A stretch of 64,000 nt of DNA from Malus domestica (taxonomy: Eukaryota > Streptophyta > Magnoliopsida > Rosales > Rosaceae). Every line of letters begins with the position of its first letter. Within the stretch, counting starts at the first letter, position 1. Of this stretch, positions 11,646-38,050 are shown piece by piece. Both the position numbers and the translations under genes were made by a program. Below the pieces are notes generated by a model. It was given only the letters and a program-made list of their open reading frames with translations. It was not told where the DNA came from and ran no database searches. The stretch covers positions 689,501 to 753,500 of the forward strand of contig NC_091676.1 in assembly GCF_042453785.1 (NCBI RefSeq), written 5' to 3'.

Positions 11646-11791
11646 GGGATGTGTTATCCACATACCCCAAATTACTTTTCACACACCCTTGTTAATTTTT
11701 ATTCGTTGATCTTCTTCAATTCATCCGATCTGATGGTCGAAAATTAAAAAGATGTGTGAGAAGTAAAATGAGGTATGTGAATATCACACAT
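11646..11791. mobile_element. Mutator-type MITE, GTGTTATCCACA family
   Basis: Ends GGATGTGTTATCCACATACC and GGTATGTGAATATCACACATC form an inverted repeat. The core matches the copies at 20321 and 48679, for which 9-bp TSDs can be read. The TSD of this copy is not clear. Confidence 0.7.
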
Positions 11792-12249
11792 CTTTAAAAA
11801 ATGCATCTTTTTATTGAGAGGATATTTATTTTATCTCATCCATGCAAATTGCAATGCAGTGCACTCACTCTACATGTCCAGCGCTCGTGACTCTCTGCCA
11901 TCCAAAATAAAAGTTAAAAAGGAGTAGAGGTATCATGTTTATATAAAAACAAAAAGACAAGACACCCAATGTGTACACCAGGTCGTCACTCATGAGTCAG
12001 GACTGCCTCAATTTTGTGTAACCATGCAAAGACATTGTGTCAGGATTTCAGTTTTCATTTTAATTTTCTTTTGTTATATTATTTTAAAAGTACAAAAAAG
12101 CCAGTGAAAAGTAGTAGCAGTGTACAGAAATTACACAATTACCAAAGAAAACTAACCCCTTTAATAAAATATATTCATTTTTAACCTAGGTCAATCGTCA
12201 CTAATTTTCACGTACCTCTATCTCTCTCATCATCTCTGTACTTTTTTGT

Positions 12250-15200
12250 TCACTGAAAATTCCCGCCTCCTCCAAAAGATTGGGTTGACGGCGCAGCTGC
12301 TGCAGCATTGCTCTCGGAATCCAATGAGCTCATCATCTCCATGCCGCCATGCTGCTGCTCTGATCTCTGATGAGAAAATCCACCGCTCATGCTCCTCACC
12401 ACTTGTCCAACCCCAAGAAAGTCCCTCGTTAGCCTATCCGACCCTCCGCCAATATTGCTCAACCCTAGATTCTGCTGCTGCAACTTTGTATCCTCCATGT
12501 TAATTGCCCTATTTTCCGAAGCATCGTATCCACCAAAGGCCGTGTTTCCGAAAATCGATGAGCCGCCTCCTCCGCTAGCAAAGGAGTTCATTAGGTCTTG
12601 GAGGTGGCTCTGGTCGGTTTGGTCACTTCCGAACATCCCACCTAAGCTGGAAGGAACTAGGGTTCCGAGCCTATCTGGTTTTGTAGTGGTCGAGGAAGAG
12701 CTTCCGAAGCTACGGAGGAGCGAGGCGGTGGTGGTGTTGTTTGAAGTGGTGGATCCCATTTGAGCAGCCTTCTGAAGCAGCGCGGTTGCGGACATGTGCG
12801 ATGACATAGCCTGCTGCTGACTATTACCATTGTTGCTATAGAGAGAAGGGACTCCGGAACTCATGTGATCGCCGCCACCCATAATGTGTCCGGTAAAGAG
12901 ATTATTCGAGACGTCGCTTCCACCTCCCGTGGTGCTGCCGTTTGCGTTGGTGTTGAAATGGTCGGGACTAATTAGTAAGTTGTTGTTGTTGTTGGCACTG
13001 TAGCTATTAGTATTGTTGGTGGTGCTGTTGGAAAGGAAAGGTAGGTTAAAAATATTGGCTCCTCCTCCGGAGTGATGCTGATGTGGTGATTGAAACTGCA
13101 TGAGTCCATGAAATGACTTGTCCTGGTCATGGTATTGTTGTTGGTTGGATTGATCATGATCAGAGGCTCCAGTCATGAAGAAAGATGCAGCTGACGACTG
13201 AGCCGATCGGAAAGATGACCCCATTGAAGGGGATGAGAGGAGGTGATCGAATTGTCCGGTCCGAGCGGCAGCGTCAGCACCTGAAGACCCACCAAGTCTA
13301 AGGAGACTGGATTGATTGTTGTGGTCGAGTGAGGACAGTTGATGGGGAGGGCCCACAACTTGCTGAGATAATCCGAGGCCAGTGTTGCTGAGGCTTCCTC
13401 CTCCGTATAAGCTGCTGCCAATGGTGCTCAAACTGGGTGGATGCCTTGCACTTTCCTGAGCCAGTGCGTCGCAGAATGCCCTATGCGTGATAAAACTGTC
13501 CCGCCTGCACTCACAATACATCATTTTCAATTTCATGGTGAACAGAAAAAAACAATACAATTAAGTAGCTAGGTTGAAACATTTCCTGATGACAGTAGTC
13601 ATATGACTGTTGCATACATTAGCTTAGAAATGTACGAAAAACATTGCATTGCATTCACATACATAATTGGAAAAGGTAGAATTGAATTGGATAAAAAAAT
13701 GAATGACACAACCTCCATATATATGGAGATAGGCCATTTAAAACTCAATGGCTGTGTAAAGTCTTTGCACAATAGGTTAAAAGCGTTCACCTTTGAAATG
13801 GAGGTCCCAAAGTTCGATTCCCTCTCTTTCAATACCGCTTGTTTCTTTAAAAAATCTCAAAGTCCCCACTAGGCTTTAGAAAATTAAAATTGTATACAAT
13901 TCTATCCTTAAAATGAAACCATTTTGTTCCTGTCCATAAGTGAGTTCCCCAATTTTAGTAGTATAATTGTTCTGATTTTAATTGGAAATTGATGGTCTAA
14001 TTAATCACACCAATTAACAAGGAATCATTTCGAGTTGCAATTCTATTAATAGATGAAAATGAAGGAAGATATCAAATCTCAAAACCCTAATGTGTGAACT
14101 CTGAAGGATTCAAAATACAAAGACTAATTAAGAATTTGTGACAAACTCAAATGCACTATAATTACATTTTTTAGGGGGAGGACACATTTAATAACTTTCA
14201 CAATTGCACGCACTAATATGCGATAACAGAAATAATTGCACAAGGAAAATGAACCAGTATTTCCCAAGAAGATATAGAGAATTAAAAGGGGATGGAAGTG
14301 TGAATTTTTCTGAAAAATGGAAAAGAAATTTGAATGAAATTAATTAATTAACAACCAAGAAATTCCATTTCAAGGACTTGCACTTCAATAAATGCAGCAT
14401 GAGAATGTATTCGAAGTGATGAAAGTAAATCTATCAAAAACCCCATTTGAGGACTTATGCTCAAGTAGTAGAAAACTCATGATCCAAATGTCTGTTTTTC
14501 CAGTTGAGAATTATTTCCCCAAAGCCATATCAATATCCTCAATTACTGCTCCTATCTAGTCGCATCATCCCCAAATTATGACACTGCAATTCTATAAACC
14601 CTACATTTTGACCAAAAACCCATTAAATTTGACACAATTTCAAACTCCTGCAAGGTCATGAACTGAAGCCAACTCAAAACCAATTTTTAGAGAGAGAGAG
14701 AGAGAGAGAGAAGCGTTGTGATGAAAGCGAACAGTAGCAGTACAAGTACCGTCTTTCTCTTCTCTTCTCTCACATTACGTAGCAATTGGCATAGCAACAC
14801 GTGAATACGAAAAAGCTTTTGCTAAACACCGAAATCGGGGTTGTTTCCGAGGTGAAACAAAGTAAAAGAAATTAAATCAAGTACTAATATGACGACCATA
14901 TATGGCCTTTTTTTTTTCTTGAAAAAACAAAAACAAACTGGGGCTTCCCAACTGGGGATAAAATCATATATAAGTATCCGGAAACCACCACGACCATAGC
15001 AGTTTCCACAGATTATTCACGTGGGAGCATGTTTTTCTGCCATTTTCCTCTTCCCCAAAGAAAATTTTTAAAAATTAATTAAAACACATTTGACAGGAAA
15101 AAAAAAATTAACGCATATACTAAAAGCGTGAAAACTTTTTTCTTCTCTTGTCACTGAGGACTCGAGGAATCTAAATAGCTTAAACAAAAGAAAAAGGTCA

Positions 15201-16317
15201 AGTTTCGACACAAGAAATTTTTGTGTGCACCGAGAACACCGAACTCATGAATTAAAGTAACTTGCTGTGATTATGCGTATGTTTGATTAATGGGAAAACG
15301 AGCTAGATAAAAAGTTGATTTTGATTTGGTGAATAATTTACCTTGAGAAAAGAGTGCCACAGTCACATCTGTATTCCCGAGTACCGCAAGTCTTAGAATG
15401 TGCCTTCCAATCGGACTGGACGGCGTACCTCTTGGAGCACTTCTCACACTTCCATTTTTTTTCGCCGTGTTTTCTAGAGTAGTGCTTTTTGATGCCGGTG
15501 AGGTCGCCGAGAGCTCGAGAGGGGTCGTGGTGGACGCATGTGGGCTCCGGGCAGAGATAGACTTTGCGTTTGGGTTCTTTTGTAGTCTTCTGCTTGAGCT
15601 TCCAAGGCAGGTTGTGTCCTCTTCTGTGGAGCTGTAGGTTCTGCTCCCTTTGGAATCCTTTGTTGCATACCTCACATATGAACCTGTTTGTTGCCATTAG
15701 GGTCTTGGGAGATAGTGCTATGACTTCTGCTTCTGGATCTGTTCTCTCATGAAAAATGCCAAACCACAACAAATTAGAAAATTCATATCTTTATTAATCA
15801 CAACAACAAAATTGTATATATCTTACAAGACACATCATATTTTGTAAACTTGCGTAATCATTTTTCAATCCAACTAATCATAAACTTTTATATCTATCTG
15901 TATATATGTGTTTTCCCATTTCAATTAGTTTCTCTGCCAATTTAGGGTTCCTTATCCGTGAGAGAGAAAAAAAGGGATGGAATACGAGCCAGAATTCAAT
16001 TCAGAAAATTAAACCATATATATTCTTAATCTACTTTGCTTTTGTGTGTTGGGTAGCTAGTTAGGTAGATCCTAGCCAATGTCAAGATTTCAGAGGTCGG
16101 GCCAACAAGTAACTAGAAAAAGAGAAAGAAAATCAATTGTTGGATACTTGCTTGGTGTTCCAGGTTGGTTTCTCTTTTTCTTCTGAGTTGGAGCAGCTGG
16201 TGCAGCTGTGGATGAGGTTGGTGTTGTGGAGGAATGTTGTTGCTTATTCATCTGCTGATTTTGATCTTCTTCTCTAATTCCAAAAAGCGGTGCGCCTGAC
16301 GAAGAAGACGCAGCCAT
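12250..16317 (-). CDS. IDD: INDETERMINATE DOMAIN (IDD/BIRD) C2H2 zinc-finger transcription factor, IDD4/5/6 clade, copy B
   Basis: On the minus strand, exons 16317-16152, 15738-15342 and 13504-12250 join to 605 codons plus stop. Exon 2 is 397 nt, exactly the length in copy A. The protein starts MAASSSSGAPLFG, carries KKKRNQPG, and has the four-finger IDD domain nearly identical to copy A, then a Ser/Asn/Gln-rich tail with MSATALLQKAAQMGS and LTRDFLGVG. Intron 1 uses a GC donor (A|GCAAGT) as in copy A. I chose the ATG at 16317 because it aligns with the copy A start; an in-frame ATG 48 nt upstream (16365) would add a lysine-rich stretch. The function is as for copy A: a nuclear regulator that partners GRAS proteins. 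Its 3' end faces copy A across 8.1 kb. Confidence 0.93.
13733..13868 (+). mobile_element. probable tRNA-derived SINE fragment in IDD copy B intron 2
   Basis: The piece GTTCGATTCCCTCTC looks like an RNA polymerase III B box, and the preceding GGTTAAAAGCG and GGAGGTCCC resemble a tRNA-related head. It lies in the opposite orientation to the host gene. Boundaries and A box are uncertain; it may be only a fragment. Confidence 0.4.
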
Positions 16318-20282: not shown

Positions 20283-20451
20283 TTAGCGTTTGTTTGAGAT
20301 TGCTTTTATAATAATTAAAAGGGGTGTGATATCCACCCACCTCATTTTACTTCTCAAACACCTTTTTAATTGTTGGCCGTATGATCGGATGAATTGAAGA
20401 AGATCAACGGACGTAAATTATCAAGGAGTGTGTGAGAAGTAAAATGAGGTG

Positions 20452-20966
20452 TGTTGATGCACAAAATTAGTGAGGACTTTGGTACAACAGAAAATGTTAA
20501 GTTTGTGACCTTCGCTAGATTACTCCGGTCACTAGTGTGGATAAGTATGTAAATGGATAGGAATAGGGAAGCAAACACAAAATGTACGTGGTTCACCCAG
20601 ATTGGCTATGTCCACAGAGTAGAGGAGTTCTCATTAATTGTGAAGGGTTTACACAAGTACATAGATTCAAGCTCTCATTTTGGGAGTACTAGTGAATGAT
20701 TTAGTACAAATGACATTAGGAAATATTGTGAGAGAATGATATCTATTTATAGAAGAGAGTTTCTAGTTTCATTCTGACATTGACATGTGTCATGTTGTGA
20801 TTGGCTTCTGATGTTGACATGTGTCGCGCTATGATTGGCTTCTGATGTCGACATGTGTCGCGCTGTGATTGACCTCTTGGTTTGAGGGAAACTCTTCTGG
20901 GTCCTTGACGGTATAACGTTGACCGGTGCTCAGTAGTTTCGGGATTGGTCAAGTATGGTACAAACA
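20452..20966 (-). repeat. LTR of outer element (its 3' LTR)
   Basis: The sequence matches 36677-37958. On the minus strand it carries a TATA box (TCTATAAATAGAT, about 20742-20756). A 34-bp unit containing ACATGTGTCGCG and ATTGGCTTCTGATG is repeated about three times at 20779-20880, in what would be U3. Confidence 0.92.
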
Positions 20967-22288
20967 GTGCTCCCTTAAGTTCCCGAGTGAGGGAAGCTCC
21001 TCGGTTGGGGACTTGCAAGATCCAAGCCATTGAGTAATCACGAAACTTCTAAGTACCGAAGTGTGGTATCATTTTCACTTGCCTTATCTGTCTCATATGT
21101 AGATGTTGCATCTTCTTTGGAAGTACTTTTCCTCCATCTAGGGTGGTATCTTTAACTGATGAAGATGCACAAGGTAATGTATCAATTTCACTTGAAGCTT
21201 ACTTGTAGTTTCGGGCTTGATCAAGTGCGATACAAACCCTATAGTAGGAGTTCCCCAAGTCGCTGAGCTAGGAGATTTGCCGAATGAGGTAACAGACAAG
21301 GTAAGCAATCAGACTTCCAAGCAAGCAACCTGGATCGGAGGTTCGACTTCGGCTTCCGGTTGATTGTTCTCATTCTCCTTGTGCCGTAAACAGCAACAAG
21401 GATAAGGAGAAGCAAATGGAGAAGAGATGATATGAGATACTTTTGCTTTTGAAGAAGTAACTTTCCACAAGCTTATTCTTAAACTAGGCTTGAGGGTTTT
21501 TTGGTTTCCTCTAGAGTATAAGGCCGACTCAAGAATTTGAAGGTCAAAACAAGTCCATCAAATCTATAGTACGTTCGACCCTGATGATATGAGATACTTT
21601 TGCTATTGACAAAGTAGTGGATGTATCGGCACGTGTTCTGTTACGCTTGTCTTTATATGCTTCCTTGTATCCTTCTCACTTGCCCTATATGTTCCTCAAG
21701 CAGATGTGGTATCTTCTCTTGAAGCATAAGATGTTGAAGATGAGTACTCGAGAGTAATGCCAGGTAAGTAATCAGGCAAGGGGTTGTAGGCAATCAGTTC
21801 CTGACTGGAAGCTTGATTACAAGTGCTGACTGATTACTCTCTTTCTCCTTGTCTTGCAGGTAAGAACAAGGCCAAAGGGAAAGACAGGGAAAAAGCATGA
21901 TATGGGATACTCTTGCTTTTAACCCTGATGATATGAGATGCTCTTACTCTGGTGTGGCTTGTTTGCAGATGTATTATCGGGAGGAAAATAAGTTAAGTAT
22001 TTCGAGAAACTCTGCTGAGAGTGCCCTCTCGGATGTGAAGAAAAGTTGAGCATTTTTTTTATTTGCAGGTCTACCTGGCTGTGGAGGATGAAGGTCGACA
22101 TATATAGGAGTCTTCCTAACAACAAGTAGTAATGTTATTCCTTTACCCTTATTGGTCATAGCAATGTAGTTGGAGCTGCAAGCTTCATTTGTTTTAACTT
22201 TTTCAGAACACTTTGAAAAAGTGGTCTGTGGTATCTAGAAAGCTGATGTTGCGTGTGAAGATTACGGACAAGCTTTATCCAATGAAAT
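20967..22288. other. internal region of outer element, no gene seen
   Basis: Repetitive non-coding interior between the left LTR and the 64-bp array. Phrases such as GATATGAGATACT recur irregularly. No conserved protein domain is recognisable on either strand. Confidence 0.6.
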
Positions 22289-22800
22289 CTGGCTCTCGAA
22301 GTTCGGAGAGCGGTGCCTCTTCGGTTTTTGAACAAGCAATCCTGTCGAGGATCTGGCTCTCGAGATTCAGAGAACGGTGTCTCTTCGATTTTTAAGAAAG
22401 CAATTATGTTGGGAGTCTGACTCTTGAGATTCAGAGAGCAGTGTCTCTTCGATTTTTGAGAAAGTAATCATGTTGGGAGTCTGGCTCTCGAGATTCGGAG
22501 GGCGGTGCCTCTTCGATTTTTAAGCACGTAATCCTGTTGGGATTCTGGCTCTAGAGATTCGGTAAGTGGTGCCTCTTCAATTTTTGAGAAAACAATCATG
22601 TTGGGAATCTGACTCTTGAGATTCGGAGAGCAGTGTCTCTTTGATTTTTAAGAAAGTAATCATGTTGGGAGTCTGGCTCTTGAGATTCGGATAACGGTGC
22701 CTCTTCGATTTTTGAGCACGTAATCCTGTTGGGAGTCTGACTCTTGAGATTCGGAGAGCGGTGCCTCTTTGATTTTTGAGCAAGCAATCTTGTTGTGAGT
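22289..22800. repeat. 64-bp tandem array, 8 units
   Basis: The phrase CTGGCTCTCGAG or CTGACTCTTGAG recurs at 22289, 22353, 22417, 22481, 22545, 22609, 22673 and 22737, exactly 64 bp apart each time. Each unit continues with GTGCCTCTTCGATTTTT. Units differ by base changes but by no net indel. Confidence 0.93.
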
Positions 22801-23185
22801 GTTTTCTCGAATGTGAGTAAAGGTTGGGCATTTTTGCCAGTCTGCCTTGCCACAGAGCACGGAGGTTGACACACATTGAGACTTTCTAGTTATCAAGCAG
22901 TGTTGCTGTTCCTTTACCCTTGTGGGTAATAGTAGGGTAGCTGGACCTTCAAAATTTATGTGTCCAAACTTTGTCAGAGATCTTTGGCAAAGTTATCTGT
23001 GGTACCCGAGGAGCTGATGTTGCGTGTGGAAAGTGGTGCCTCTTCAGAATCCGGAGAGTGGTGTCTCTTTGATTTTTGAACCAACGACCTTGTTGCCCTT
23101 TCTTTTATAAGGGACCAATTGTGTGCAAGAAGTACATTAAGAGAGTTATTGCTTGTAGGAATTTTTCCCTTTCTTTATAGATTTA

Positions 23186-23893
23186 TTGCACCTCATTTCT
23201 CCTTCATCATTTCTGAGAATGTCTGGCCCATCTGACCGTCGTTTTAACTTGAACTTTAGTGAAGAGGCAGCCATGCCTTCTCAAGACAACATATGGTGCC
23301 CATCATTCTTATCCCGTACTGGTTCTCTTACCGTTGGGGACTATGTGATGAAGAATGATATGACCGCTGCGGTGGTGGCCAGAAACCTTTTCACTCCCAA
23401 AGATAACATACTACTTTCCAAACGGTCTGATGAGTTAGCTGTTAAGGATTCTCTGGCTCTCAGTGTTCAGTGTGCAGGTTCTGTGTCTAATATGGCCCAA
23501 CACCTATTTGCTCGAACCCGCCAAATTGAATCATTGGCGGCTGAAGTGATAAGTCTCAAACAGGAGATCAGATGGCTCAAGCATGAGAATAAACAATTGC
23601 ACAGGCTTGCACATGACTATGCTACAAACATGAAGAGGAAGCTTAACCAGCTGCAGGAATCTGATGGTCAGATTTTACTTGATCATCAGAAGTTTATGGG
23701 TTTGTTCCAAAAACATTTATTGCCTTCGTCTTCTGGGGCTGTGCCGCGTAATGAAGCTCCAAATGATCAAGCTTCGGTGCCTCCTCATTCTAGGGTTCTG
23801 CCTAGTACTGAGGCTCTGAATAATCACCCTCTAGTGCCTCCTCTTTCTGGGGCTCTGCCGACTGCTGAGACTTCTCCCAAGCAACCTTTGTGA
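23186..23893 (+). CDS. antisense additional ORF of the outer LTR element, coiled-coil protein of unknown function
   Basis: An intact 235-codon ORF; the likely family start is the second Met at 23219 (MSGPSDRRFNLNF), giving 224 residues. A central segment (about residues 108-165) is rich in Gln, Glu, Lys and Leu with heptad spacing, as in a coiled coil. The tail has three similar Pro/Ser blocks (APNDQ, ALNNH, ETSPKQ). It runs on +, opposite to gag and the LTRs, near the 3' end of the element. I recall near-identical uncharacterised proteins scattered through apple and pear annotations, so this is probably a retrotransposon-borne additional ORF and not a host gene. Function unknown. Expression from an antisense promoter is possible but not shown by the sequence. 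Confidence 0.7.
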   Translation: MHLISPSSFLRMSGPSDRRFNLNFSEEAAMPSQDNIWCPSFLSRTGSLTVGDYVMKNDMTAAVVARNLFTPKDNILLSKRSDELAVKDSLALSVQCAGSVSNMAQHLFARTRQIESLAAEVISLKQEIRWLKHENKQLHRLAHDYATNMKRKLNQLQESDGQILLDHQKFMGLFQKHLLPSSSGAVPRNEAPNDQASVPPHSRVLPSTEALNNHPLVPPLSGALPTAETSPKQPL

Positions 23894-24540
23894 AGGCTCC
23901 CTCTTGTTTGCTTATTTTGATTCATGTATAGGTACATATTTGTAACTTATCGGAGATATCGATAAACAAACTTTGCTTCATTTCAACGTATTGTGTTAAA
24001 TACACCAAGGCATTCTTCACTAAGTTCTTTGAATTTTTCATTTTGTTGAAACTTGTATGTTGAAGCTTTGTGAGTGGAGCATATAGGTTGAGGTAGTGCT
24101 CCCTTAATTTCCTGAGTGAGGAAAACTTCTCGGTTGGAGACTTGAAAAAATCCAAGTCACTAAGTGGTCGTGAGACTTTCGAGTATCAAGGTGTAGTAGC
24201 ATATGGTAAGAGTCTCCTAAGTCTCCGATCGAGGGAGTTGACGAATGAGGTGTCTTGCTAGTGGCCAAGTTTCCAAAGTAACAAAACTTCACCATTTTCA
24301 TTTCTAAGTGGTAGCCCAAAACTCATCATTCATATATATTTGTTATGAAAGTTGTTATGCCTAACGTAGATGAGGCATAGGCAATTTTTTTTTTTTGAAT
24401 TTTTTTGATTTTTTTTTTTGAATTTTCGAATTTCCAAAATATATATATATATTTTTTTTTAAGTTTTATAGGTGAAGGTTTGTTGGGTACCATGAATTGA
24501 TTTTGCTTCACACTATCTTAATCAAGATAGTGTGAACCTT
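23894..24540. other. internal spacer of outer element
   Basis: Non-coding, with T-rich runs near 24385-24460 and the phrase GTACCATGAATTGATTTTGCTTCACAC, which recurs after the minisatellite. No gene is seen. Confidence 0.55.
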
Positions 24541-25100
24541 TTGTGTTGAAGCTTTGTAGGTGAAGCTTTTGTAGGTGAAGTTTTTATGGGTGAAGCTTTT
24601 GTGGTGGGTGAAGCTTTTGTGAGTGAAGCTTTTGTGGTAGGAGAAGCTTTTGTGGGTGAAGCTTTTATGGTGGGAGAAGCTTTTGTGGGGGAAACTTTTA
24701 TGGGTGAAGCTTTTGTGGTGGGGGAAGCTTTTGTGGTGGGGGAATTTTTTGTGGGTGAATCTTTTGTGGGTGAAGCTTTTGTTGGTGAAGCTTTTGTGGT
24801 GGGTGAAGTTTTTGTGGGGGAAGCTTTTGTGGGTGAAGCTTTTGTGGTGGGTGAACCTTTTGTGGTGGGTGAAGCTTTTGTGGGTAAAGCTTTTGTTGGT
24901 GAAGCTTTTATAGGTGAAACTTTTGTAGGTGAAGCTATTGTGGGTGAAGCTATTGTGGGTAAAGCTTTTGTAGGTGAAGCTTTGGTAGGTGAAGCTTTGG
25001 AGTTGAAGCTTTGTAGGTGAAGCTTTGGAGTTGAAGCTTTGTAGGTGAAGCTTTTGTAGGTGAAGCTTTGTAGGTGAAGCTTTGGAGTTGAAGCTTTTGT
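24541..25100. repeat. 15/18-bp minisatellite (GGTGAAGCTTTTGTG)
   Basis: About 35 units of GGTGAAGCTTTTGTG, some with an extra GTG. Every unit length is a multiple of three, so long frames stay open on both strands: a VGEAF-repeat reading on + and a KSFTH-repeat reading on -. I treat these as array by-products, not genes. Most units hold a HindIII site (AAGCTT). Confidence 0.93.
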
Positions 25101-25974
25101 TGGGTACCATGAATTGATTTTGCTTCACACTATCTTGATCAAGATAATGTGAAGCTTTTGAGAATTTGTAGTTGTCCTCCATTGATGAAGCTTTTGTTGG
25201 TGAAGCTTTGTTGAATTTCCCAATTTCCTTTTTTTTTTTTTTTGGGAAAACTAGAAATTTGTTGAATTTCCCAATTTCCTTTTTTTTGGGGTGGGAAATT
25301 TAGAAATTTGAAAATGTGGGAGAGACAACATATACAAATTTTGCTTTCACACTGTTGAGCAAGAGATTATGATGCCAGCCACACCTTGTAGTAGTCGAAG
25401 GTTTGGATGAACCACATAAATTGAATTTGCTTCGAATAGTCTTGATCAAGAGTGTGTGAAGCTTTCTACGAGTTGTAATTGCCCTTCATTAATGAAGCTT
25501 TTGTTGGCACCATAAATTGATTTTGCTTCACACTGTCTTGATCAAGAGCGTGTGAAGCTTTTGAGAGTTGTGATTGAACTCATTTGATGAGGCTTTTGTT
25601 GGCACCATAATTTGGTTTTGCTTCACACTGTCTTGATCAAAAGTGTGTGAAGCTTTTGGGAATTGTGGTTGCCATCTATTGATGAAGCTCTTGTTGGAAC
25701 CATAAATTGGTTTTGATTCATACTGTCTTGATCAAGAATGTGTGAAACTTTTGAGAATTATGGTTACCCTCCATTGATGAAGCTCTTGTTGGCACCATAA
25801 ATTGGTTTTGCTTCACACTGTCTTGATCAAGAGTGTGTGAAGCTTTTGAGAATTGTGGTTGCCCTACTTTGATGAAGCTCTTGTTGGCACCATAAATTGG
25901 TTTTGCTTCACACTGTCTTGATCAAGAGTGTGTGAAGCTTTTGAGAATTGTGGTTGAACTCCTTTGATGAAGCT

Positions 25975-26321
25975 TGTTTATGCCATATTTAGGGTCTCTG
26001 TATTTAGACCTCGTATAAATACTCGGGGGACTTAAATGTAATTATGTAATAAAGGAATGGGCATATATGTAATAAGTGAGGAGCCCTTATTTTATAAAAG
26101 AACTCATCACCTTCACAATTAGATGAAGCCATTTCTGAAGCCTTCTCACCCTTCTCATATTCATAGGTTATCTCCCTCACCTCTCAGATAAATACAATAA
26201 TCAGTGTGGACGTAGCCCAAACCTTGGGGTGAACCACGATACTTCTTGTGTTATTTATATTTCTTGCAGATTCACGGTCGGATTTACGTTGTTCCAAGAC
26301 CTCCGATTTTGTGCATCAACA
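25975..26321 (+). repeat. 5' LTR of inner element
   Basis: Starts TGTTTATGCCATATTTAGGG and ends GTGCATCAACA. It contains the likely TATA element TTATTTTATAAAAG. It matches the split 3' LTR except for a 12-bp gap and scattered substitutions. Confidence 0.9.
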
Positions 26322-27248
26322 TTTGGCGCCGTCTGTAGAAATCGACACAAAAAACTATGTCGGTTCTCTTTCATTTTTTTCACCTCCATCGTGAATCTGC
26401 AAAATCACAAAAACCTAGAAACATAAAATATCCAAATCTCAAGCACTCCTCACAAGCCCACAAGGAAGATAAAAGTATTTTGCTTTTTGGGTTGGTATTC
26501 AGGAAACCAGGGAATCAGATCTTTCTCTCATCAGCTCTCGATCCTACTAATGCACCAGTAGCTTATCATGTTTCGCGGTGCAGTGTCGTCTCATGACGGA
26601 GGAGATCAGAGAGGCTCGACCTCTCGCCCCCATTGACTTCGGAAGAAACTCGTGTGCTCGCCGTCGACAACATCCTTATGCAAAGTGACGACTGTTGACA
26701 GCGGAAGAAGAGCTTTGTAGTCCTTTCAAACCTCAGAATCATCGTCGTTTTCAAACCCAGGCCATACTCTTGCTCCATGCAAGGTCAAAACTGCGATTAC
26801 AGATCCCGGTGCTCCAAAAAGGTTTCGATATGAGATGATGGTGATGAGATCCCGGTCATTCTCTCTCTCCTATCCTCCGCCACAGTCCCCAACGACATCG
26901 ACCGTCTTCTCCACGACAATCTGGCTGTTAAGGATGCATCAACATCTTGGGCATCTCAAACACCCTCACCACCCCGCCATACTCCGATTCTGATATGATG
27001 TCGTCCGACAATCAGTGATAGATTTCATAGCTGAACCAAAACTAGACTTCAAACAGGCCACGTCAGCAAGTCAGTTAGTCATTAGTTAGTTGCTTGGATC
27101 GAGCGGGAAGGAAATTGAGAGATTATATAAGTACATCGAAGGTGTTTGATAGAATGTCGTTGAGAGAAAAGATAGAGGCAGAAGCTTCATTTAAGATCAG
27201 CAAGAAATACCCTTTCATCTTCGCGGCACACTCAGGCGGAAAGTACGG
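26322..27248 (+). other. inner element 5' interior, possibly acquired DNA
   Basis: Follows the primer-binding site. It is more GC-rich than the surrounding repeats (about 26540-27010) and reads like broken coding or leader sequence, but I recognise no protein family in any frame. Confidence 0.35.
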
Positions 27249-27500
27249 ATGAAGAATTTGATGGCATCTTTTGAAGCGGTGGCTGGCAATGAACTTGGGA
27301 ATAACAGTAGTAGAGATGAGCCAGTGCAAAACAGTGATGCTATGAGGAAACCTCGGATTTTACTTGCTGCTACTGGAAGTGTAGTTGTCCTAAAGTTTGT
27401 CAACCTCTGCCAGATTTTTTCTCGATGGGTGGCAGTAAAAGCAGTTGCCACAAGAGTATCTTTGTGTTTCATTGATCAAGCATCGCTTCCAAATGATGTT
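27249..27500 (+). pseudogene. captured fragment of a HAL3-type phosphopantothenoylcysteine decarboxylase gene
   Basis: An open frame gives a HAL3 N-terminus: a variable leader (probable native Met at 27261), then RKPRILLAATGSV (flavoprotein beta-strand and glycine turn), NLCQIFSRW, VKAVATRVSLCFIDQASLP. HAL3 proteins are FMN-binding decarboxylases of coenzyme A synthesis. Similarity stops after LPNDV at about 27500, where a real HAL3 would continue toward the catalytic region. The following codons (to 27644) are unrelated. The piece is uninterrupted, so it is an exon-sized capture inside an LTR element on the same strand. It cannot encode a working enzyme. Confidence 0.8.
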
Positions 27501-28129
27501 TCTGACTTGTACCAGGCGGTATTGGATATCTGGCCTGAGATCGAGTCCATTTTCTCATTCAAACCAACCTCCGCCGTCCGATCTCTAGCGGTTAACTCCA
27601 ATCTGATGCGAGGCAACAACATCAACAGCATCAACAAAAGCTGACGCATGAGGATAACCCAATCCGAATATACTACCAGAAGGCACGATGCCAGCACAAC
27701 ATCACCATCATGGCCAACCTACAGATTCAAGGGTGCACATGCATGACAGCTCAGAGACAGAAAGAGAGGGTCAAGAAACAGAAAGAAAATCAGAAAGAAA
27801 AGCAGAAAGCATGGCTACCCATTAATGCACAACAGCCCAAGCTCCAAGTTGATTAAGGGAATCAACTTGGCACAATGACAACGCAGAAGATGCCCACCAA
27901 CTTTCATCATGCATGTTCCCACTCTTTACAGACGACACCATGATGTTAAAGTGAAAAGAAAAGGCAAAACAGAAAGCAAAAGTAAGGAATAAACACCTCA
28001 CCAGAATGATGTGATTTACTTTTTTGATAGATGTATGATGTAATTTATTTTTCTTATCTCTCGGAGACATCTGTATAAATGGGTTGGAATGTTGTGTGGA
28101 GAGCGAATGCCCATAAGCCTAAAATAGCA
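27501..28129 (+). other. inner element interior, no gene seen
   Basis: An A/G-rich stretch with AGAAAGAAAA-type runs (about 27765-27810) and no recognisable domain. Confidence 0.5.
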
Positions 28130-28540
28130 CCAACCAGGTGATCAACAGTACGCCCAGTACTCCAAAATTATTCGGCAACTTGCCGCTATTACCACCAACC
28201 AGATGATCAAAAGTACGCCCAGTACTCCAAAATTATTCAGCAACATGCCGCTATTACCACCAACCAGGTGATCAAAAGTACGCCTAGTACTCCAAAATTT
28301 TTGGCAACCTGCAGTTATTACCACCAACCAGGTGATGAAATGTACAACCCGTACTCTAATATCATTTGGCAACTAGCCATTCATGTCATCAACCAGGTGA
28401 TGAAATGTACAACCCGTACTCTAATATCATTTGGCAACTAGCCATTCATGCCACTAACTAGGTGATGAAATGTACAACATGTACTCTCCTTCATGCCACC
28501 AACCAGGTGATCAAAAGTACGCCCAGTACTACAAATTATA
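28130..28540. repeat. about 63-bp tandem array (CACCAACCAGGTGAT)
   Basis: CACCAACCAGGTGATC or a variant recurs at about 28130, 28193, 28259, 28321, 28388, 28452 and 28497. The same words, on the other strand, make up the array at 33530-34400 in the outer element; in each element's own orientation they read the same way. Confidence 0.85.
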
Positions 28541-28770
28541 CATGAGCATTACTCATGTCATTCATACATAAACATTTATGAGCATCACTCATGACAATCT
28601 TACATAAACATTCATGACCATCATTCATGTCAACATTCATGAGCATCACTCATGTTAACATTCATGAGCATCACTCATGTTAACATTCATGAGCATCACT
28701 CATGACAACATCCATGAGCATCACTCATGTCAATCAACATAAACATTCATGAGCATCACTCATGTCAATC
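28541..28770. repeat. CATGAGCATCACTCATG short tandem array
   Basis: About eight copies of a 25-30-bp unit containing the imperfect palindrome CATGAGCATCACTCATG. Confidence 0.88.
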
Positions 28771-28905
28771 AGCTTCAAAAGCTTCATTTACAGAGCTCTA
28801 GCTTCAAAAGCTTCATTTACAAAAGCTCCAGCTTTGAAAGCTTCATTTACAGAGCTCTAGTTTCAAAGTTTCACTTGCAAAGCTTCACCTACAAAGCTTC
28901 AGTGC
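28771..28905. repeat. GCTTCAAAAGCTTCATTTACA tandem repeat
   Basis: Four or five units of a GCTTCATTTAC / AAAGCTTCA type, related on the opposite strand to the GGTGAAGCTTTTGTG minisatellite of the outer element. Confidence 0.8.
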
Positions 28906-28967
28906 AGGGTATACAAATACCACTTCCGAACAACCGCCACTTCGGCCCATACATGGATTTAATTTGA

Positions 28968-29640
28968 AGTCTCCAGCCAACAAACTCTGTTGACTGAAGA
29001 CTTGGGGGACTAGATTATATACCATATATTGGGCCTCAACTAGACCTCATGAAAATACTTGGGGGACTTAGCCCATTATCTATGTATTGAAAAGTGAGCC
29101 CTTATTCTATAAAAGGGATTCCCTCACTTTCATTAGAGAACACTTATGAAAAATACTTGGGGGACTTAGCCCATCACTTATGTATTGAGGAGCGAGCCCT
29201 TATTTTTTAAAAGGGACTCCCTCACCATCATTAGAGAGCATCAACTCTAGCTCATTATTCATAAATTGAGGAACGATCCCTTATTCTATAAAAGGGACTC
29301 TCTCACCATCATTAGAGAGCATCATCGCCTACTGAGCAACCGCCTCGCCGCGAGCATCAACTCTAGTCTATCACTTATGTATTGAGGAGCGAGCCATTAT
29401 TCTATAAAAGGGACTCCCTCACCTTCAACGCCACAAGCCTAGCCAACCAAGGCAACATAAGCCACAAGCAGAACAGCCTCGCAATATGTGCTACATCTAG
29501 TTGAGCCTCATTTCACATTGAGCGCCGCCTTATATCGAGTATTCAGCTCTAGACAATATCTAGTTACTTCGGCCCACACATGGACTGAATTTCAAGTCTC
29601 CAGCCAAAAGATTCTTTTGACTGAAGACTTAGGGGACTAC
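28968..29640 (+). repeat. internal duplicate of polypurine tract plus U3, with tandem TATA units
   Basis: TTGAAGTCTCCAGCCAACA then GACTTGGGGGACTAGA at 28968-29016 is a near copy of the tract that precedes the true 3' LTR at 29590-29640. It is followed by an LTR-like start (ATATACCATATATTGGGCCTC). The U3-like part has expanded into about four tandem units, each with CCCTTATTCTATAAAAGGGA or a variant (near 29094, 29197, 29278, 29393), a TATA-box-like core. This looks like a degenerate extra LTR or tandem-LTR remnant. Confidence 0.7.
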
Positions 29641-29859
29641 TATTTATACCCAAGGTTCTAAAAAATGCTAGGCGCTAGTCGGGCGGTGGGATGGCGCCTA
29701 GCGCCTAGGCGGCTAGGCGGGATCTAGGTAGGCGCCTAGGCGGCCTAGGCGGATTTAGGTAAATTTCTTATATATTATATGAATGAATTAAACTTACTAT
29801 ATCAGATGTAAATAATTATTGAATAATATGTTATTTCTTATAAAAAAAATACATATATG

Positions 29860-31519
29860 TAGGGGTGGGTTCAAAAAATCGAAAATCGAAAAAAACCGAA
29901 AATCGAACCGGACCGAGGCCGAAAAACACCGAACCGAAAAAAAAATCGAACCGAAACTGTCAAACCAAACCGAACCGAATCTGGCCAGTTCGGTTTCAGT
30001 TTTTGAGGTTCAGAAACCGAACCGAACCGATATATATATATTTAATTGTTTTTTTCTTATAAATATTTTAGTCATACAATTACAACAAAACCGAACATGT
30101 TGCCAAGTTGGTTTCAGTGAAACTTTTCAAGCTAAGAGCGTATGGGTTCGAACCCTCGGCTCCAGGATGTTGGAAATTTTTTTTAATTTTCATGAGAAAT
30201 GAACAAAACCCTTTAAAGTTTTAACCCTAGCCGCCGTCACTCCCATTTCAGTTTTCACCTCTAGGTTTTCTCAAACACTCTATTTCTCTCTCCCCTCCGC
30301 TGCTTTCTTCCTCTCTGGTCTCTGCTTCGTCAGTCTCTCTCTCTCCTTCCTCTTTTCCTCCAAATCACTCGCCCCTTTCGAATTGGAAGTCTCTCATCTT
30401 GCTGCAACTTCTTCTTGTCGTTTCGAGTCTCGACAGCAAAGGTTAGTCTCACAGTCTCACTTCTCTGTGATTATTTTGATTGTCCTTTTATTTTTTATTA
30501 TCCTTGCATGTGGATTTGTTTTAGTTTCTGGGTGGATTTGTTTCAGTTTTTGGGATGGATGAGGAGCCCTGCGGTACTAATTTGTATCGACGGGATCCTC
30601 GGCGAGGCGGAGAAGAAATCGACTATGATGGATTTCACAGCTGAGATGAGGATCCAAGCTTTTCTCCGACTCTTTCATGGTTTTGGTTCGATTTCAAAAC
30701 TACCCAAATGATAAAAAATTAAAAAACTATGATGGATTTCTGGGTTTTTTTCTTTCTTTCTGGATTTGGGTTTTTTGTTGAATATAAAGGCTTCAACTTC
30801 ATGACTACAAAACGATTTGAGCTTTTTAGAGAGAGAGAGAGAGCGGCTTTTGATGATTTCAACGAGTAAATGCTGTAAGGAAGAAATACAGAGATCCAAA
30901 ACAAGTTAATGTTGGGGAGGACCTTTCTTGTTTATCAAAAGCCGGTTAAACAAGCAGCACCAACAACCTTAGGAGGTGGAACCTGCGCCGGCTCCTCCAC
31001 TGTCAGCTGAAAAGTCTGAACACTATCTGTTCTGGAGGAAAAGATAAAGAACTTACTGGAACAAGTGGAGGCCCTAGGTGAAGCTGGAAAGGTCGATGAA
31101 GCTGAAACACTCATGACAAAGATGCTGCTGTTGGGGATTTTTAATTATTACTGTGAAGTATACTGATACATGAAATTTGACTACTTGATTTCTTTATCCT
31201 TTCATTTGGTAGGTGGATATGCTTAATTCCGAGAAGACAGCCTTGGCTCAGCAGCCCCAGAATGATAAAGTGTTGATGTTGGCACAGTGGATAAGTTTAA
31301 CCACTCTGTTGCTGGTGCTGCTTGTTTTAACCACTCTGTTGCTGGTTCTTTCTTGTTCTTACTGCATTTTTGTATCATTGGCTTTGAAAAATGATCACAT
31401 AAGATTAAATCATAATTTTTTAACTTTTAAACCAATGAGGATGATTGGCCTTCCAGATTTGATATCATTGCCTTTTTAGAATGGCTGCAAGCTTTGTGTT
31501 CTTCGAAAATTTGTTTGCT

Positions 31520-31558
<39 letters not shown>

Positions 31559-31681
31559 GAACCGGGCCGAAACCGAACTGGAAAAAACCGAACCGAATGC
31601 AAACCGATAAAAAACCGAACCGAACAGTAATTTCGGTTCGGTTTCCGGTTTTGACAAAAAACCGAACCGAACCCACCCCTA
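29860..31681. mobile_element. Pack-type hAT carrying a LUC7-RL gene fragment
   Basis: The terminal inverted repeats TAGGGGTGGGTTC and GAACCCACCCCTA are perfect over 13 bp; the 8-bp TSD CATATATG is perfect (29852-29859, 31682-31689). Both subterminal regions are arrays of AACCGAACCG-type words. The middle is host-derived: a leader-like segment with a CT-rich tract and a GTTAG donor (about 30210-30450) and LUC7-RL exons (30973-31287). A run of 33 A lies at 31524-31556. It has no transposase, so it is non-autonomous, and it is the innermost layer of the nest. Confidence 0.93.
30973..31287 (+). pseudogene. captured fragment of LUC7-RL (U1 snRNP-associated splicing factor)
   Basis: Segment 30973-31121 reads EVEPAPAPPLSAEKSE, then after a one-base loss EEKIKNLLEQVEALGEAG and KVDEAETLMTK. 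After an intron-like gap ending TTGGTAG, segment 31213-31287 reads VDMLNSEKTALAQQPQND and KVLMLAQ. This is the coiled-coil stretch before the second zinc finger of plant LUC7-RL; the finger itself (normally after MLAQEKKMALCE) is absent because the sequence diverges at TGGATAAG. Keeping an intron indicates capture from genomic DNA and not from mRNA. The frameshift and missing ends make it non-functional as a protein. Confidence 0.85.
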
Positions 31682-32114
31682 CATATATGAATGTTTTATG
31701 TACATATATAATATGCTTGCCTAGGGAAAAAAAACTATTATCTAAATAATTTATATAACATTTATATACATATAATATACACCCCAAATTTTTAAAATAT
31801 AAAAAGCCCACGCAAGTGGGTGGTTTTCATGAAACCATCTGATGGCACTTCATATAATATATAACTTTGAAAAATATAAAAATCCCACACTGGTGGGTGG
31901 CTTTCATGATGACAACCATCTGATAACCCTTAAATACTAGCTTACCTCTTTCACGCAAGTGGGTGGACATCTGATATCCACCTTACCTCTCACATCACCC
32001 AAGAATCAAGATAGACAGTAACCACCAGCTTTTGACTTTACTTATTTCCACCTTACCTCATTCACGCAACCGGTGCTATTCGTTTCTTCTTCTTTGTTCG
32101 TTTAGTTGGTTCTT

Positions 32115-32166
<52 letters not shown>

Positions 32167-33529
32167 CTCATCTTCATTCTTCTTATTCAGAACCTCAAAA
32201 TTGGATCTCAAATCCAACTTGTGCCACCATAGATTGAAATGTTTAATACTCTCTCTAAAGTGTTTAATACTCTGTCTCTCTTTCTCTTCGCACTCTCTCT
32301 TGCCACATCTTCACAAAGGCGAGTTGCAGAAACTCTCCGGGGTTCTACTGCTACATACGAGATCGGAAGTTGTAGATCCGTTGCGAAAATAACAGCGAGT
32401 TTAGAATTTTCAGCGAGATTCAAACCGCCTAGCCCACCGCCTAACTTGCCTAAGGCGCCTAGCGAGCGCCTAGGCGGCCGCCTAAATCCTCCCTGCCTAA
32501 CTGAACGTTTTGGTCTAAATCGGGTCGGAGCTCCCCCGCCCAGCGCCTAGGCCGATTTTTAGAACACTGTTTATACCATATTTAGGGCCTCAATATTTAG
32601 ACCTCGTATAAATACTTGGGGGACTTAAATGTAATTATGTAATAAAGCAATGGGCAAATATGTAATAAGTGATGAGCCCTTATTCTATAAAATGACTCCT
32701 CACCCTCACAATTATAGGAGGCCATTTCTAAAGCCTTCTCACCCTTCTCACATCCTTTCTCATATTCAGAGGTTCTCTCCCTCACCTCTCAGATAAATAC
32801 AATAACCAGTGTGGACATAGCCCAAACCTTGGGGTGAACCACGATATTTCTTGTGTTATTTACATTTCTTGCAGATTCACGGTCGGATTTACGTTGTTCC
32901 AAGACCTCCGGTTTTGTGCATCAATAAAGCTTTTGTTGGCACCATAAATTGGTTTTGCTTCACACTGTCTTGATCAAAAGTGTGTGAAGCTTTTGAGAAT
33001 TGTGGTTGTCCTCAATTGATGAAGCTCTTGTTGGCGCCATAAATTGGTTTTGCTTCACACTGTCTTGATCAAAAGTGTGTGAAGCTTTTGAGAATTGTGG
33101 TTGAACTCCTTTGATGAAGCTCTTGTTGGCACCATAAATTGGTTTTGCTTCACACTGTCTTGATTAAGAGTGTGTGAAGCTTTTGAGAATTGTGGTTGCC
33201 CTCTATTGATGAAGCTTTTGTTGGCACCATAAATTGGTTTTGCTTCACACTGTCTTGATCAAGAGTGTATGAAGCTTTCTACGAGTTGTAGTGTTTGCAT
33301 TGTTACAGGGGAAATGTCTGAAGTAGATGCAAGATGGCTGAATAGCTTGATCTTCGTATGCCATGCACTGAAGTTGTTGTTGGCTTGCAATAAGACTTTA
33401 TTGGTGACTATAACTCTTGTTGAGCATAAGTGCTCCCCTAGTTAAGTTGTCAAGCTTGAGGGTTTTTGATTATTTGTGAATGCTAGAAGTTCACATGTAC
33501 AAGTTGTATCACTCGTCTTCTGGTAGGTG

Positions 33530-34400
33530 GAATGAATGGTGAGTTGCTTTCATCACTTGGTTGGTGGTACGAAGATGGGTTCCTTCTTCACTTAGTTGGT
33601 GGCATGAGTGGCAAGTTGCCAAATGATATTAGAGTATGGGTTGTACATTTCATCACCTGGTTGGTGGCATGAAAGAGAGTACGGGTTGTACATTTTATCA
33701 TCTGGTTAGTGGCATGAAGATGAGTTTCTTCTTCACTTGGTTGGTGGCATGAGTGGCAAGTTGCCAAATGATATTAGAGTACGGGTTGCACATTTCATCA
33801 CCTGGTTGGTGGCATGAAGGAGAGTACGAGTTGTACATTTAATCACCTGGTTGGTAGTATGAAGATGAGTTCCTTTTTCACCTGGTTGGTGGCATGAGTG
33901 GCAAGTTGCCAAATGATATTAGAGTACGGGTTGTGCATTTCATCACCTGGCTGGTGGCACGAAAATGAGTTCCTTCTTCACCTGGTTGGTGGCATGAGTG
34001 GCAAGTTGCCAAATGATATTAGAGTACAGGTTGTACATTTCATCACCTGGTTGGTGGCATGAAGATGAATTCCTTATTCACCTGGTTGGTGGCATGAGTG
34101 GCAAGTTGCCAAATGATATTAGAGTATGAGTTGTACATTTCATCACCTGGTTGGTGGCATGAAGGAGAGTACGGGTTGTACATTTCATCACCTAGTTGAT
34201 GGCATGAAGATGAGTTCTTTCTTCACCTGGTTGGTGGCATGAGTGGCAAGTTGCCAAATGATATTAGAGTACGGATTGTACATTTTATCACCTGGTTGGT
34301 GGCATGAAGGAGAGTACGAGTTGTACATTTCATCACCTGGTTAGTGGCATGAAGATGAGTTACTCTTCACATTTCATCACCTGGTTGGTGAGAATAAAGG
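33530..34400. repeat. CACCTGGTTGGTGGCATGA tandem array in outer element
   Basis: More than a dozen copies of CACCTGGTTGGTGGCATGA are embedded in longer units with GGCAAGTTGCCAAATGATAT and GAGTACGGGTTGTACATTT. Units of two lengths alternate, giving a higher-order pattern of about 125-180 bp. Confidence 0.88.
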
Positions 34401-34976
34401 CAAGGTGTCGAGGCACATTGTAATAAGTGTCGAAGACATAAAGTATGTTGAACCTTTTCGAAGCACTGTTGGCTTATGTATGGATGTGTTGGAATGTATG
34501 ATATTTATGTATGAATGTGTTAGAATGTATAATGTTTATGTATGAATGTGTTAGAATGTATGATGTTTATGTTGATTGATATGAGTGATGCTTATGAATG
34601 TTTTGCTATGCATGAAGGGATCCATGTTTTTGATATGTGAACCATGTTGGTTGTAACACTTAGTATCACATACTTTGTGTTAAAGTATGCATGTTGAAGC
34701 TCTGAGTTGGAGTATAAGGGTAGGTCAGCGTAGACCAAGTGTTACAGTGTTAAGAACGCAAAAGACTCAGAAGAAATTGTCTGAATTCCCTCTTCTTTAA
34801 ATATTTGTCGAATGGCTTGTGTGACAAAAAATCTCAAGCGGTTGAGAGTCAAAACATTTGTAATGTGTATGCCTTATTATAATAGCATTTCCCTCAGTAC
34901 ATAGTTCTCCACTTTGAAAGAGTGAGGCTTGGCCCCATAGTCATAATAGTCGACGGTACGTTCACCCCTGGTTGTC
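34401..34976. other. outer element spacer downstream of gag
   Basis: Non-coding, with TGTATGAATGTGTTAGAATG repeated about three times near 34480-34570. No pol domain found here, where protease and reverse transcriptase would be expected. Confidence 0.6.
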
Positions 34977-36676
34977 TTAATACGAACTTTTATCCCTCTT
35001 GTTGTAATGAGCTTGCTGAGAGTAAAAATCATTCCTCTTACCAAGAGACAGATACATTTGGTGACTTAGCAAGTAGCTAAATGAGGCAAGAGATGATGCA
35101 ATGGGTGTCTGAATGGCCAAGATCTCCTCACTTGGTAGAACTTGACTTCCATTTCCCACTTGTTGATAGGGGTTAACCATATGGGGGTTCCCTTGGTATT
35201 TCATTGATTCAGCAGAGGCGTGGTTGTAAGCCTGTGCCATCACCTCAGAGTAAGTCTTCCAAGTGTTGGCATTGATCATGTACTTGAAGAAACAATCACG
35301 TAGGCCTGCCATGAAGGCCTTGAGGGCGGTCTTGTCATCTGCCTCAGCACAGCGAGAATACTCATGGCTGAAGCGACCGGCATACTCTCGTAGTGACTCG
35401 TCCGGCTTCTGGCAAATAGTGTACAAGTCATTTGTAGAATGCAAGCGATTGGTCTGGAAGATGTGTTGAGAAACAAACAGTTTCCTCAGTTCCTCAAATG
35501 AGTCTATTGTCTTAGGTGGAAGACGACAATACTAGTTTAGAGTTCCGCCAGAGAGGGTGGAGGGGAAGAGAATACTTCACTCTTCGTCGGTGTGCATCCG
35601 ATATGCCATGGTGGACTCAAAGAGGTTAAGGTGTTCAATTGGGTCCTCCTTTCCAGTATATAGTTGTAAACCAAGCTTTTGTTTTGTCTTCGCTTAAAGG
35701 GGGTGTCGAGGATCCTCCTTGTGAAAGGGCCAGGCCTGGATTGGTTCCAATCAGGTATCTCGGCCTGACGTTCGGCCTTCAACTTGTTTACTTCTTCAAT
35801 GAGCTGTATGACAAGGGGGTCCTAAGTGGAGCCATGTACCACTGAAATTTTCTTTCGTAAGTCTCTATCGCCTCTTGGAAGTAGGAAAGTTTGAGCAAGG
35901 GCGTGTGGTTTTTTCTTGAACTCGCCATACCGACTTCTAGGGTGAGTTTGTCGGAATACCTCAAAGTCTCATGTACCTTCATGTTCCTCTGGGACCTATT
36001 GTTCTTTCCCTAGATTGGCAGCGGGCCTGGGTCATGGTAGGGGACCGAGTCTTTCAAAAACCCTTGGGTCATTGATCTTCGAGCATATGTGGAGGGGATT
36101 CTCTTGACGTTGCTTTAGGAAGTCTCGGCAGTCAAGATAAACGGTTTTCGATCCTTCTAACCCTTCTGCAATGAGGTGTCTTCTTCCACTTCTCCTGCTT
36201 CGGGTCGAATCATCTGGGTTGAGAGAAGTCTCATGTTGATCAATGTTTTGATGATTAACTCGCTTCTCATCAGGGATACCTATGTCAAAGGAAGGTGACC
36301 CTCAGTTTTGGGGGTACCCAGATGATGGTTGATGTCCACAAGGGCAACGAGCTCGCGTGTTTGAGTACGCCTAGTTTCGTGGAGCGTCTCAAAGAGCTTC
36401 TCATACTACTCCTAGAGGACCTCATTCTTCATTGCTATCTTGTTGTTCTGAGCTTTTAGCTCATCGACTTTAGCTTGAAGAGCAACCCTTTTTCCTTCAT
36501 TCTTTCGTTGCTTCACACTAGGTGCAAGAGGGGTGTCATTCTGTGTGTTGTTGCTTCCTTCGCTCCCCATGTTGGAGAGGGATGCCTGGTCAAAAGAGAG
36601 TGTACAAATGGTGGAAACCAGCTTGGCAAAGCTGAAGAGAGTGGGAATAAGTGTCGTTCCCACAGACGGCGCCAAA
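34977..36676 (-). pseudogene. decayed retrotransposon gag of the outer element
   Basis: On the minus strand, starting behind the primer-binding site, several frames read in sequence: a lysine/glutamine-rich coiled-coil start (MGSEGSNNTQNDTPLAPS, about 36571), middle pieces near 35982-35537, then the core of a plant retrotransposon gag domain (35444-34977) with LREYAGRFSHEYSRCAEADD and ALKAFMAGLRDCFFKY. At least four frame changes or stops separate the pieces, so no full gag can be made. The gene would package the element's RNA. No protease, reverse transcriptase or integrase follows. Confidence 0.82.
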
Positions 36677-37958
36677 TGTTGATGCACAAAATCAGTAAGG
36701 ACTTTGGTACAACAGAAAATGTTAAGTTTGTGACCTTCGCTAGATTGCTCCGGTTACTAGTGTGGATAAGTATGTAAATGGATAGGGACAGGGAAGCAAA
36801 CACAAGATGTATGTGGTTCACCCAGATTGGCTACGTCCACGGAGTAGAGGAGTTCTCATTAATTGTGAAGGGTTTACACATGTACATAGGTTCAAGCTCT
36901 CATTTTGTGAGTACTAGTGAATGATTTAGTACAAATGACATTAAGAAATATTGTGAGAGAATGATCTCTATTTATAGAAGAGAGTTTTTAGTTTCATTCT
37001 GACATTAACACATGTCGTGTTGTGATTAGGGGTGGGCGCGGCGCGGTTTGGTGCAGTTTCGAGTGAAACCACAACCAAAACCGAAACATTTTGCGGTGCG
37101 GTGCGGTTTTGAAGCCAAAACCGAAATGAAACCAAACCGTTCAGTTCGGTGCGGTGCGGTTTCAAACGGTTTCGGTTTGATTTTTAAGAAAAAATGTACA
37201 ATTTAAAATATACACATATTTATGCATAAGACAGTCTTATTTTTCTCGTATATTAATTAATGAATATGTAGTAAAATTGCAGCAAAAAAGAGTCAAAACT
37301 GAAAGAAAAAAAAATGCAGCAAAACTGCACCCAAACAGCACCAAAAACAGCAGCAAAACTGCACCAAAAAAATGCATAAAAAACAGCAGCAAAACTGCAC
37401 CAAAAACTGCACAAAACTGCACAAAATTGCACCAAAAAATAATGCAGCAAAAATGTAGTCGCAAAGGCAGAAGTAGAGATGCAAGCAGAAGCAGTGGAGT
37501 CAAAGTGCAAACCCACAGCAAAACCAAACCTATAAGTTATAACCTAGTTGAAAAGTTGAAAATATAAGTTATATAACATTTATTTTATTATTTATTATAT
37601 GGTGCGGTTTCGGTTTCGGTGCGGTTTTGAAAACCCAAAACCGAAACCAAACCGTTTTGTGTGTCGCGGTTCGGTTTTGAAACCGAAACCGTTTCAAAAC
37701 CGCAAAACCAAATCGTTTGGTGCGGTTTGATTCGATTCGTGTTTCGGTTTTGGTTTCGGTTTTCGGTTCCAAGTGCCCACCCTTAGTTGTGATTGGCTTC
37801 TGATGTTGACACATGTCGCGCTATGATTGGTTTCTGATGCCGACACGTGTTGCGCTATGATTGGCCTCCTGGTTGGAGGGAAACTCTTATGGGTCCTTGA
37901 CGGTATAACGTTGACCGGTGCTCAGTAATTTTGGGATTGGTCAAGTATGGTACAAATA
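36677..37958 (-). repeat. LTR of outer element (its 5' LTR), split by a hAT
   Basis: Matches 20452-20966 over 515 bp once 37027-37793 (hAT plus one TSD) is removed. On the minus strand it is followed by the primer-binding site at about 36660-36676. The outer terminus reads CAAATA where the other LTR has CAAACA. Confidence 0.92.
37027..37785. mobile_element. non-autonomous hAT element (TAGGGGTGGGC ends) in the outer LTR
   Basis: The ends TAGGGGTGGGC and GCCCACCCTTA pair as inverted repeats; the 8-bp TSD GTTGTGAT is perfect (37019-37026, 37786-37793). Length is 759 bp. Subterminal regions are dense in GTGCGGTTTCGGTTT words, and the centre (about 37265-37455) is an array of CAGCAAAACTGCACCAAAAA-like units. 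The family is related to the Pack-hAT at 29860. No coding capacity. Confidence 0.92.
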
Positions 37959-38050
37959 AGGTGTATGGATAGCATACCCGTAATTAAAATCATTTTTTAA
38001 TTACGTTTAGTGTAAAAAATTTATGTGATTAGAGATCATAGAAGTTGTTT

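Follow-up and report, generated by a model that had tools for sequence, protein, structure and literature searches.

Five mobile elements nested one inside another at a single locus of Malus domestica

Non-autonomous long terminal repeat (LTR) retrotransposons that carry gag and lack pol are known as the TR-GAG type. Some members of the Retand lineage of LTR retrotransposons (Tat, Ty3/gypsy) are also non-autonomous (PMC11963269; this article and the others are cited here for passages of their text). Tandem arrays in the 3' region are described for about half of Retand/Tat elements, and a Transposase_28 domain in the antisense open reading frame (ORF) is reported for nearly all Retand clusters (PMC11963269), while Transposase_28 is given for 23% of Retand elements in PMC6317226. 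Nested LTR elements lie preferentially in the 3' untranslated region of others (PMC6911290). We analysed a window of 64,000 nucleotides from Malus domestica (NC_091676.1, positions 689,501 to 753,500, numbered below from its first letter), in which an earlier note, made by a model from the letters alone, had described a stack of five transposons at 20312-37989. We confirmed five nested mobile elements with clean boundaries, and the earlier interpretation as a whole was partly supported.

From the outside inwards, the nest consists of a miniature inverted-repeat transposable element (MITE), an outer LTR element, an inner LTR element, a hAT transposon and a Pack-hAT; an extra hAT lies in the outer 5' LTR. 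As had been claimed, coordinates included, we found an exact target-site duplication (TSD) at all six insertions, with lengths of 9, 5, 5, 8, 8 and 8 bp. The MITE is bounded by TAATTAAAA (20312-20320 on the left, 37981-37989 on the right), the outer element by AGGTG (20447-20451 and 37959-37963) and the inner element by AAGCT (25970-25974 and 32927-32931). The hAT is flanked by TTTATACC (29643-29650 and 32570-32577), the Pack-hAT by CATATATG (29852-29859 and 31682-31689) and the extra hAT by GTTGTGAT (37019-37026 and 37786-37793). Removal of the layers in silico recovered two outer LTRs of 515 bp, the register of a 95-bp array and a MITE of 148 bp. The five-layer nest with readable boundaries is thus borne out by the exact TSDs and by the closed empty sites, and the layers, their boundaries and the order of their nesting are supported. 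A strict order of insertion, as proposed before, holds for the five nested layers and fails for the extra hAT, which is later than the outer element and unordered relative to the inner element and the layers within it, so that its place is only partly ordered.

Closure of the outermost site joined a left part of 131 bp (20321-20451, plus strand) to a right part of 17 bp (37964-37980, plus strand). In the closed 148-bp MITE, the first 48 bases pair with the reversed end at 38 of 48 positions, compared with 30 of 65 columns for the left part alone. Other copies of each layer were sought within the 64-kb window. The closed MITE with its TSDs could be placed four times elsewhere, with 111-125 identities in 148-162 columns, and each placement spans 11 or more of the 17 bases to the right of the LTR element. 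These placements correspond to three copies (11643-11798, 48671-48808 and 48851-48985, by alignment), one of them palindromic and readable on both strands. A MITE-type scan of the window (9-bp repeat, looser ends with 9 of 14 matches, up to 20 kb) returned 56 hits and was not used as support; the MITE is identified instead by the inverted ends that closure restores and by its copies. A 9-bp TSD, inverted ends and multiple copies are the features of a Mutator-type MITE, this class resting on the TSD length, which we take to be a mark of Mutator elements.

The outer element has an own length of 9783 bp and lies on the minus strand, with a primer-site-like sequence adjoining its right LTR. Its 3' LTR (20452-20966) is uninterrupted, and its 5' LTR is split into 350 bp (36677-37026) and 165 bp (37794-37958). 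When the 759-bp extra hAT and one TSD copy were removed, the two LTRs aligned over 515 bp without a gap, as the earlier note had predicted, and differed at 34 positions (29 transitions and 5 transversions). Tandem arrays with unit lengths of 64 bp (22288-22800), 15/18 bp (24532-25105), 95 bp (25415-25974, ending in AAGCT, and 32927-33278, beginning with it) and 45/100/145 bp (33548-34390) lie on the minus strand. A gag fragment was found at 34980-35531 on the same strand (PF03732, E 8.6e-12), and an antisense ORF runs on the plus strand from an ATG at 23219 to 23893, with an alternative TTG start at 23186.

With its long 3' region carrying tandem arrays, an ORF of more than 600 bp antisense to gag and a 5-bp TSD, the outer element resembles the Retand elements of PMC11963269, in the passages cited. 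It differs from them in that we detected no pol domain in the 24 pieces scanned (some overlapping, a subset of the listed ORFs) and no match of the antisense ORF to Transposase_28 (PF04195) at E values up to 1. This ORF gave weak coiled-coil matches, with no Pfam family above the cut-off. The LTRs and the gag domain together with the lack of a detected pol also recall the TR-GAG type; unlike that type, a single piece matches Pfam as gag. We thus regard the outer element as a putative non-autonomous Retand/Tat-like element, judged by these comparisons, whose lineage is not proven because neither a reverse transcriptase nor a Transposase_28 match was found.

The inner element has an own length of 4025 bp and lies on the plus strand, antisense to the outer element. 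Its 5' LTR of 347 bp (25975-26321) is followed by the primer-site-like TTTGGCGCCGTCTGT; the first 10 bases of its 3' LTR (29641-29650), which begin with TA in place of the TG of the 5' LTR, are separated by the hAT from the remaining 349 bases (32578-32926). The LTRs thus differ in length (347 and 359 bp), which corrects the earlier reading, and show one 12-bp gap and 26 differences (16 transitions and 10 transversions). To examine the register of the 95-bp array, we joined the flanks of the inner site and aligned a 94-base probe. Units matching the probe at 88-91 of 94 positions start at offsets 86, 181, 276 and 371 around a junction at 275, so the predicted 95-bp period does continue across the junction. 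Both LTR elements have paired LTRs, a 5-bp TSD and a primer-site-like sequence by the 5' LTR; the window contains no tRNA gene. The LTR end with the primer-site-like sequence (ATTTTGTGCATCAACATTTGGCGCCGTCTGT) is common to both elements, and their arrays are of the same families, oriented alike relative to the element, including a 65-bp array of the inner element (28128-28475, plus strand) that corresponds to the outer array at 33548-34390. The shared LTR end, primer-site-like sequence and array families make the inner element a relative of the outer one. Passages on nested plant LTR retrotransposons likewise describe Ty3/gypsy-type elements inserted into the 3' region of a relative (PMC7251063, PMC6911290).

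The inner element carries a fragment of a HAL3 (phosphopantothenoylcysteine decarboxylase) gene at 27309-27512 on the plus strand, a second captured gene that was absent from the earlier note. Its 68 residues matched the AtHAL3a structures 1mvl and 1e20 in phmmer (E 3.7e-15), and in Pfam they reached Flavoprotein at E 0.067, below the cut-off. EXO70 was tried as a further captured gene beside the HAL3 fragment (Pfam E 0.12; no match of the piece alone) and is not claimed. In both LTR elements the stretch adjoining the 3' LTR is duplicated: 28939-29023 resembles 29566-29650 in the inner element (85%), with repeated LTR-like pieces after it (region 28939-29650), and 24095-24202 resembles 20966-21072 in the outer element (77%). 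These duplications suggest template switching.

The hAT in the inner 3' LTR (29651-32569, plus strand) ends in CAAGGTTCTAAAAA and CAGTGTTCTAAAAA and measures 1089 bp without the Pack-hAT. The Pack-hAT (29860-31681, plus strand, 1822 bp) has TAGGGGTGGGTTC at both ends, and the extra hAT (37027-37785, no strand assigned) ends in TAGGGGTGGGC and TAAGGGTGGGC. All three have short terminal inverted repeats and an 8-bp TSD, which is typical of hATs. We scanned the window for exact 8-bp repeats enclosing 14-bp inverted ends (at least 11 matches) with 300-3500 bp inside. This returned 39 hits, namely 29 in AT microsatellites, 7 in the tandem array and the 3 hATs described above; in ten 64-kb sequences from a first-order Markov model the hits numbered 0, 0, 1, 0, 0, 1, 0, 0, 1 and 1 (mean 0.4). 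No transposase was matched in Pfam by the 17 pieces scanned of the 51 ORFs listed within 29651-32569, and the 1089-bp hAT reads, from its sequence, as probably non-autonomous. The extra hAT has 16 listed ORFs, the longest of 128 aa, and shares with the Pack-hAT one weak stretch (94 columns, 75.5%) and similar end sequences.

A LUC7 gene fragment enclosed by the inverted ends (31020-31287, plus strand), with two exon-like pieces (31020-31121 and 31213-31287), supports the label Pack-hAT given before. The first piece matched LUC7 (PF03194) at E 5.8e-7 with 29.9 bits (cut-off 33) and the second alone gave no match; joined, they reached E 1.4e-11 and 45 bits, above the cut-off. The intron-like stretch between them closes with AG on its 3' side but does not open with GT. 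Should this stretch be an old intron, LUC7 would have been captured from genomic DNA and not from mRNA. A comparison of the fragment with solved structures gave 16 matches, none of them a LUC7 entry and some of them pentatricopeptide-repeat or designed helical proteins, and was not used. As a non-autonomous element with inverted ends and a host gene fragment, the Pack-hAT resembles the Pack-TYPE transposons described in passages of PMC8903248; it differs in that LUC7 is absent from the main text of that article, and is otherwise ordinary.

The locus is very probably an ordinary accumulation of plant transposons in an intergenic region, built up by successive independent insertions. In this history, a 148-bp MITE with its 9-bp TSD would have been struck near its right end by the non-autonomous Retand/Tat-like element in minus orientation. 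The related non-autonomous LTR element of 4025 bp, in plus orientation, would then have entered the outer element's 95-bp array, followed by the 1089-bp hAT in the first ten bases of the inner 3' LTR and by the 1822-bp Pack-hAT with its LUC7 fragment in the hAT. Separately, the 759-bp hAT-type element would have entered the outer 5' LTR. Judging by the known biology of these classes, the TSDs were presumably made by an integrase and transposases supplied in trans. The published preference of nested LTR elements for the 3' part of others, cited above, counts for successive insertion.

Several observations weigh against this history or against single steps of it. A relative of the hAT at 7293-8303 shares both ends with it and measures 1011 bp compared with 1089 bp, and its global alignment score of 247 far exceeds the maximum of 20 shuffles (-12.5). 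However, its 620 identities in 814 paired positions are spread over 1286 columns, with good agreement at the ends only, and simple repeats aside, blastn (E 1e-4) aligned the left part only. Since the relative is weak in the middle, it supports the ends and size of the hAT and not the exact Pack-hAT junction, for which the window holds no independent empty-site copy. The LTR divergences also point the other way: the Kimura two-parameter distance (K2P) is 0.0701 for the outer pair (95% interval 0.047-0.096) and 0.0793 for the inner pair (0.051-0.113), so that the inner pair is not below the outer one and the sign opposes the nesting, within error. The inner K2P was smaller in 0.325 of bootstraps, and in 0.157 with CG/CHG positions masked. 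The natural clock expected from the nest thus did not materialize: each LTR pair was dated as had been suggested, and the divergences, with their overlapping intervals, were too noisy to date the nest. If rates between 1.3e-8 and 4e-9 substitutions per site per year are assumed, the two pairs would fall anywhere between 2.7 and 9.9 million years. The reversal at this locus is ordinary, since the inner and outer divergences are reversed in 1042 of 4126 nested pairs in a survey that proposes gene conversion (PMC7251063, in the passage cited); an inner divergence no lower than the outer one is a further likeness to the nests described in PMC7251063 and PMC6911290.

We considered whether the inner element had instead inserted into a parental outer element, and a composite of up to 17 kb, possibly with the hAT, had then moved to the MITE together; the two LTR elements would then not stand for two separate insertions here. 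Such a move would account for an inner LTR divergence that equals or exceeds the outer one, and transversions lean the same way, opposite to the nesting (10/347 inner and 5/515 outer, Fisher P 0.059). Moreover, the two elements have opposite orientations, which would leave the termination signals of the inner one outside the outer transcript. Against this, substitutions overall do not differ significantly (26/347 inner and 34/515 outer, Fisher P 0.68), and the reversal also occurs in the surveyed pairs noted above, for which gene conversion was proposed. A search for co-mobilised pairs yielded 26 candidates, whose sites were always at least 50 bp apart, and its authors judged simultaneous retrotransposition unlikely, a composite move with later reshaping of the site being left possible (PMC6911290). 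We consider a composite move here quite improbable.

Sequential insertions with distorted LTR dates, through gene conversion of the outer LTRs or inner LTRs that were not identical at birth, are a less remote alternative, although still an unlikely one. The transition/transversion ratios (29:5 outer, 16:10 inner, Fisher P 0.069) and the 12-bp length difference would fit it, as would the potential conversion tracts reported in 25% of LTR pairs (PMC7251063); sampling error suffices as an explanation, given the 95% intervals above. This alternative qualifies the dates and not the reading as successive insertions. A joining of unrelated repeats in the assembly is barely credible: the region is rich in repeats, but misjoins would not be expected to leave six exact TSDs and empty sites that close in register.

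Compared with the nests of LTR retrotransposons cited above, the one analysed here differs by three additional DNA-transposon insertions and a MITE substrate, with all ends legible. Nests of this kind are common in plants. The present one is real, well read and ordinary, and it illustrates cleanly how insertions become nested in a plant genome. The sole wider lesson is a caution, namely that legible nesting gives an order, while LTR divergence at a single locus gives no dates. The kinship of the two LTR elements, the gag fragment with its antisense ORF, and the HAL3 and LUC7 fragments are new beyond the previous description.

Searches of the window against Rfam gave no match at gathering scores, the pattern of the outer LTR had no match in viral and prokaryote DNA collections, and a literature search with short MITE or LTR strings found no published paper. 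The hAT relative at 7293-8303 is flanked by TAAAATAT and CCAAATAT, which match only partially as a TSD. Elsewhere in the window, Pfam identified two convergent genes for BIRD/IDD zinc-finger transcription factors (1233-4176, plus strand, and 12250-15772, minus strand); their translations look alike, and the pair is perhaps an inverted tandem duplication. A reverse-transcriptase zinc-binding domain (zf-RVT) lies at 58776-59720 and probably marks the remnant of a long interspersed nuclear element.

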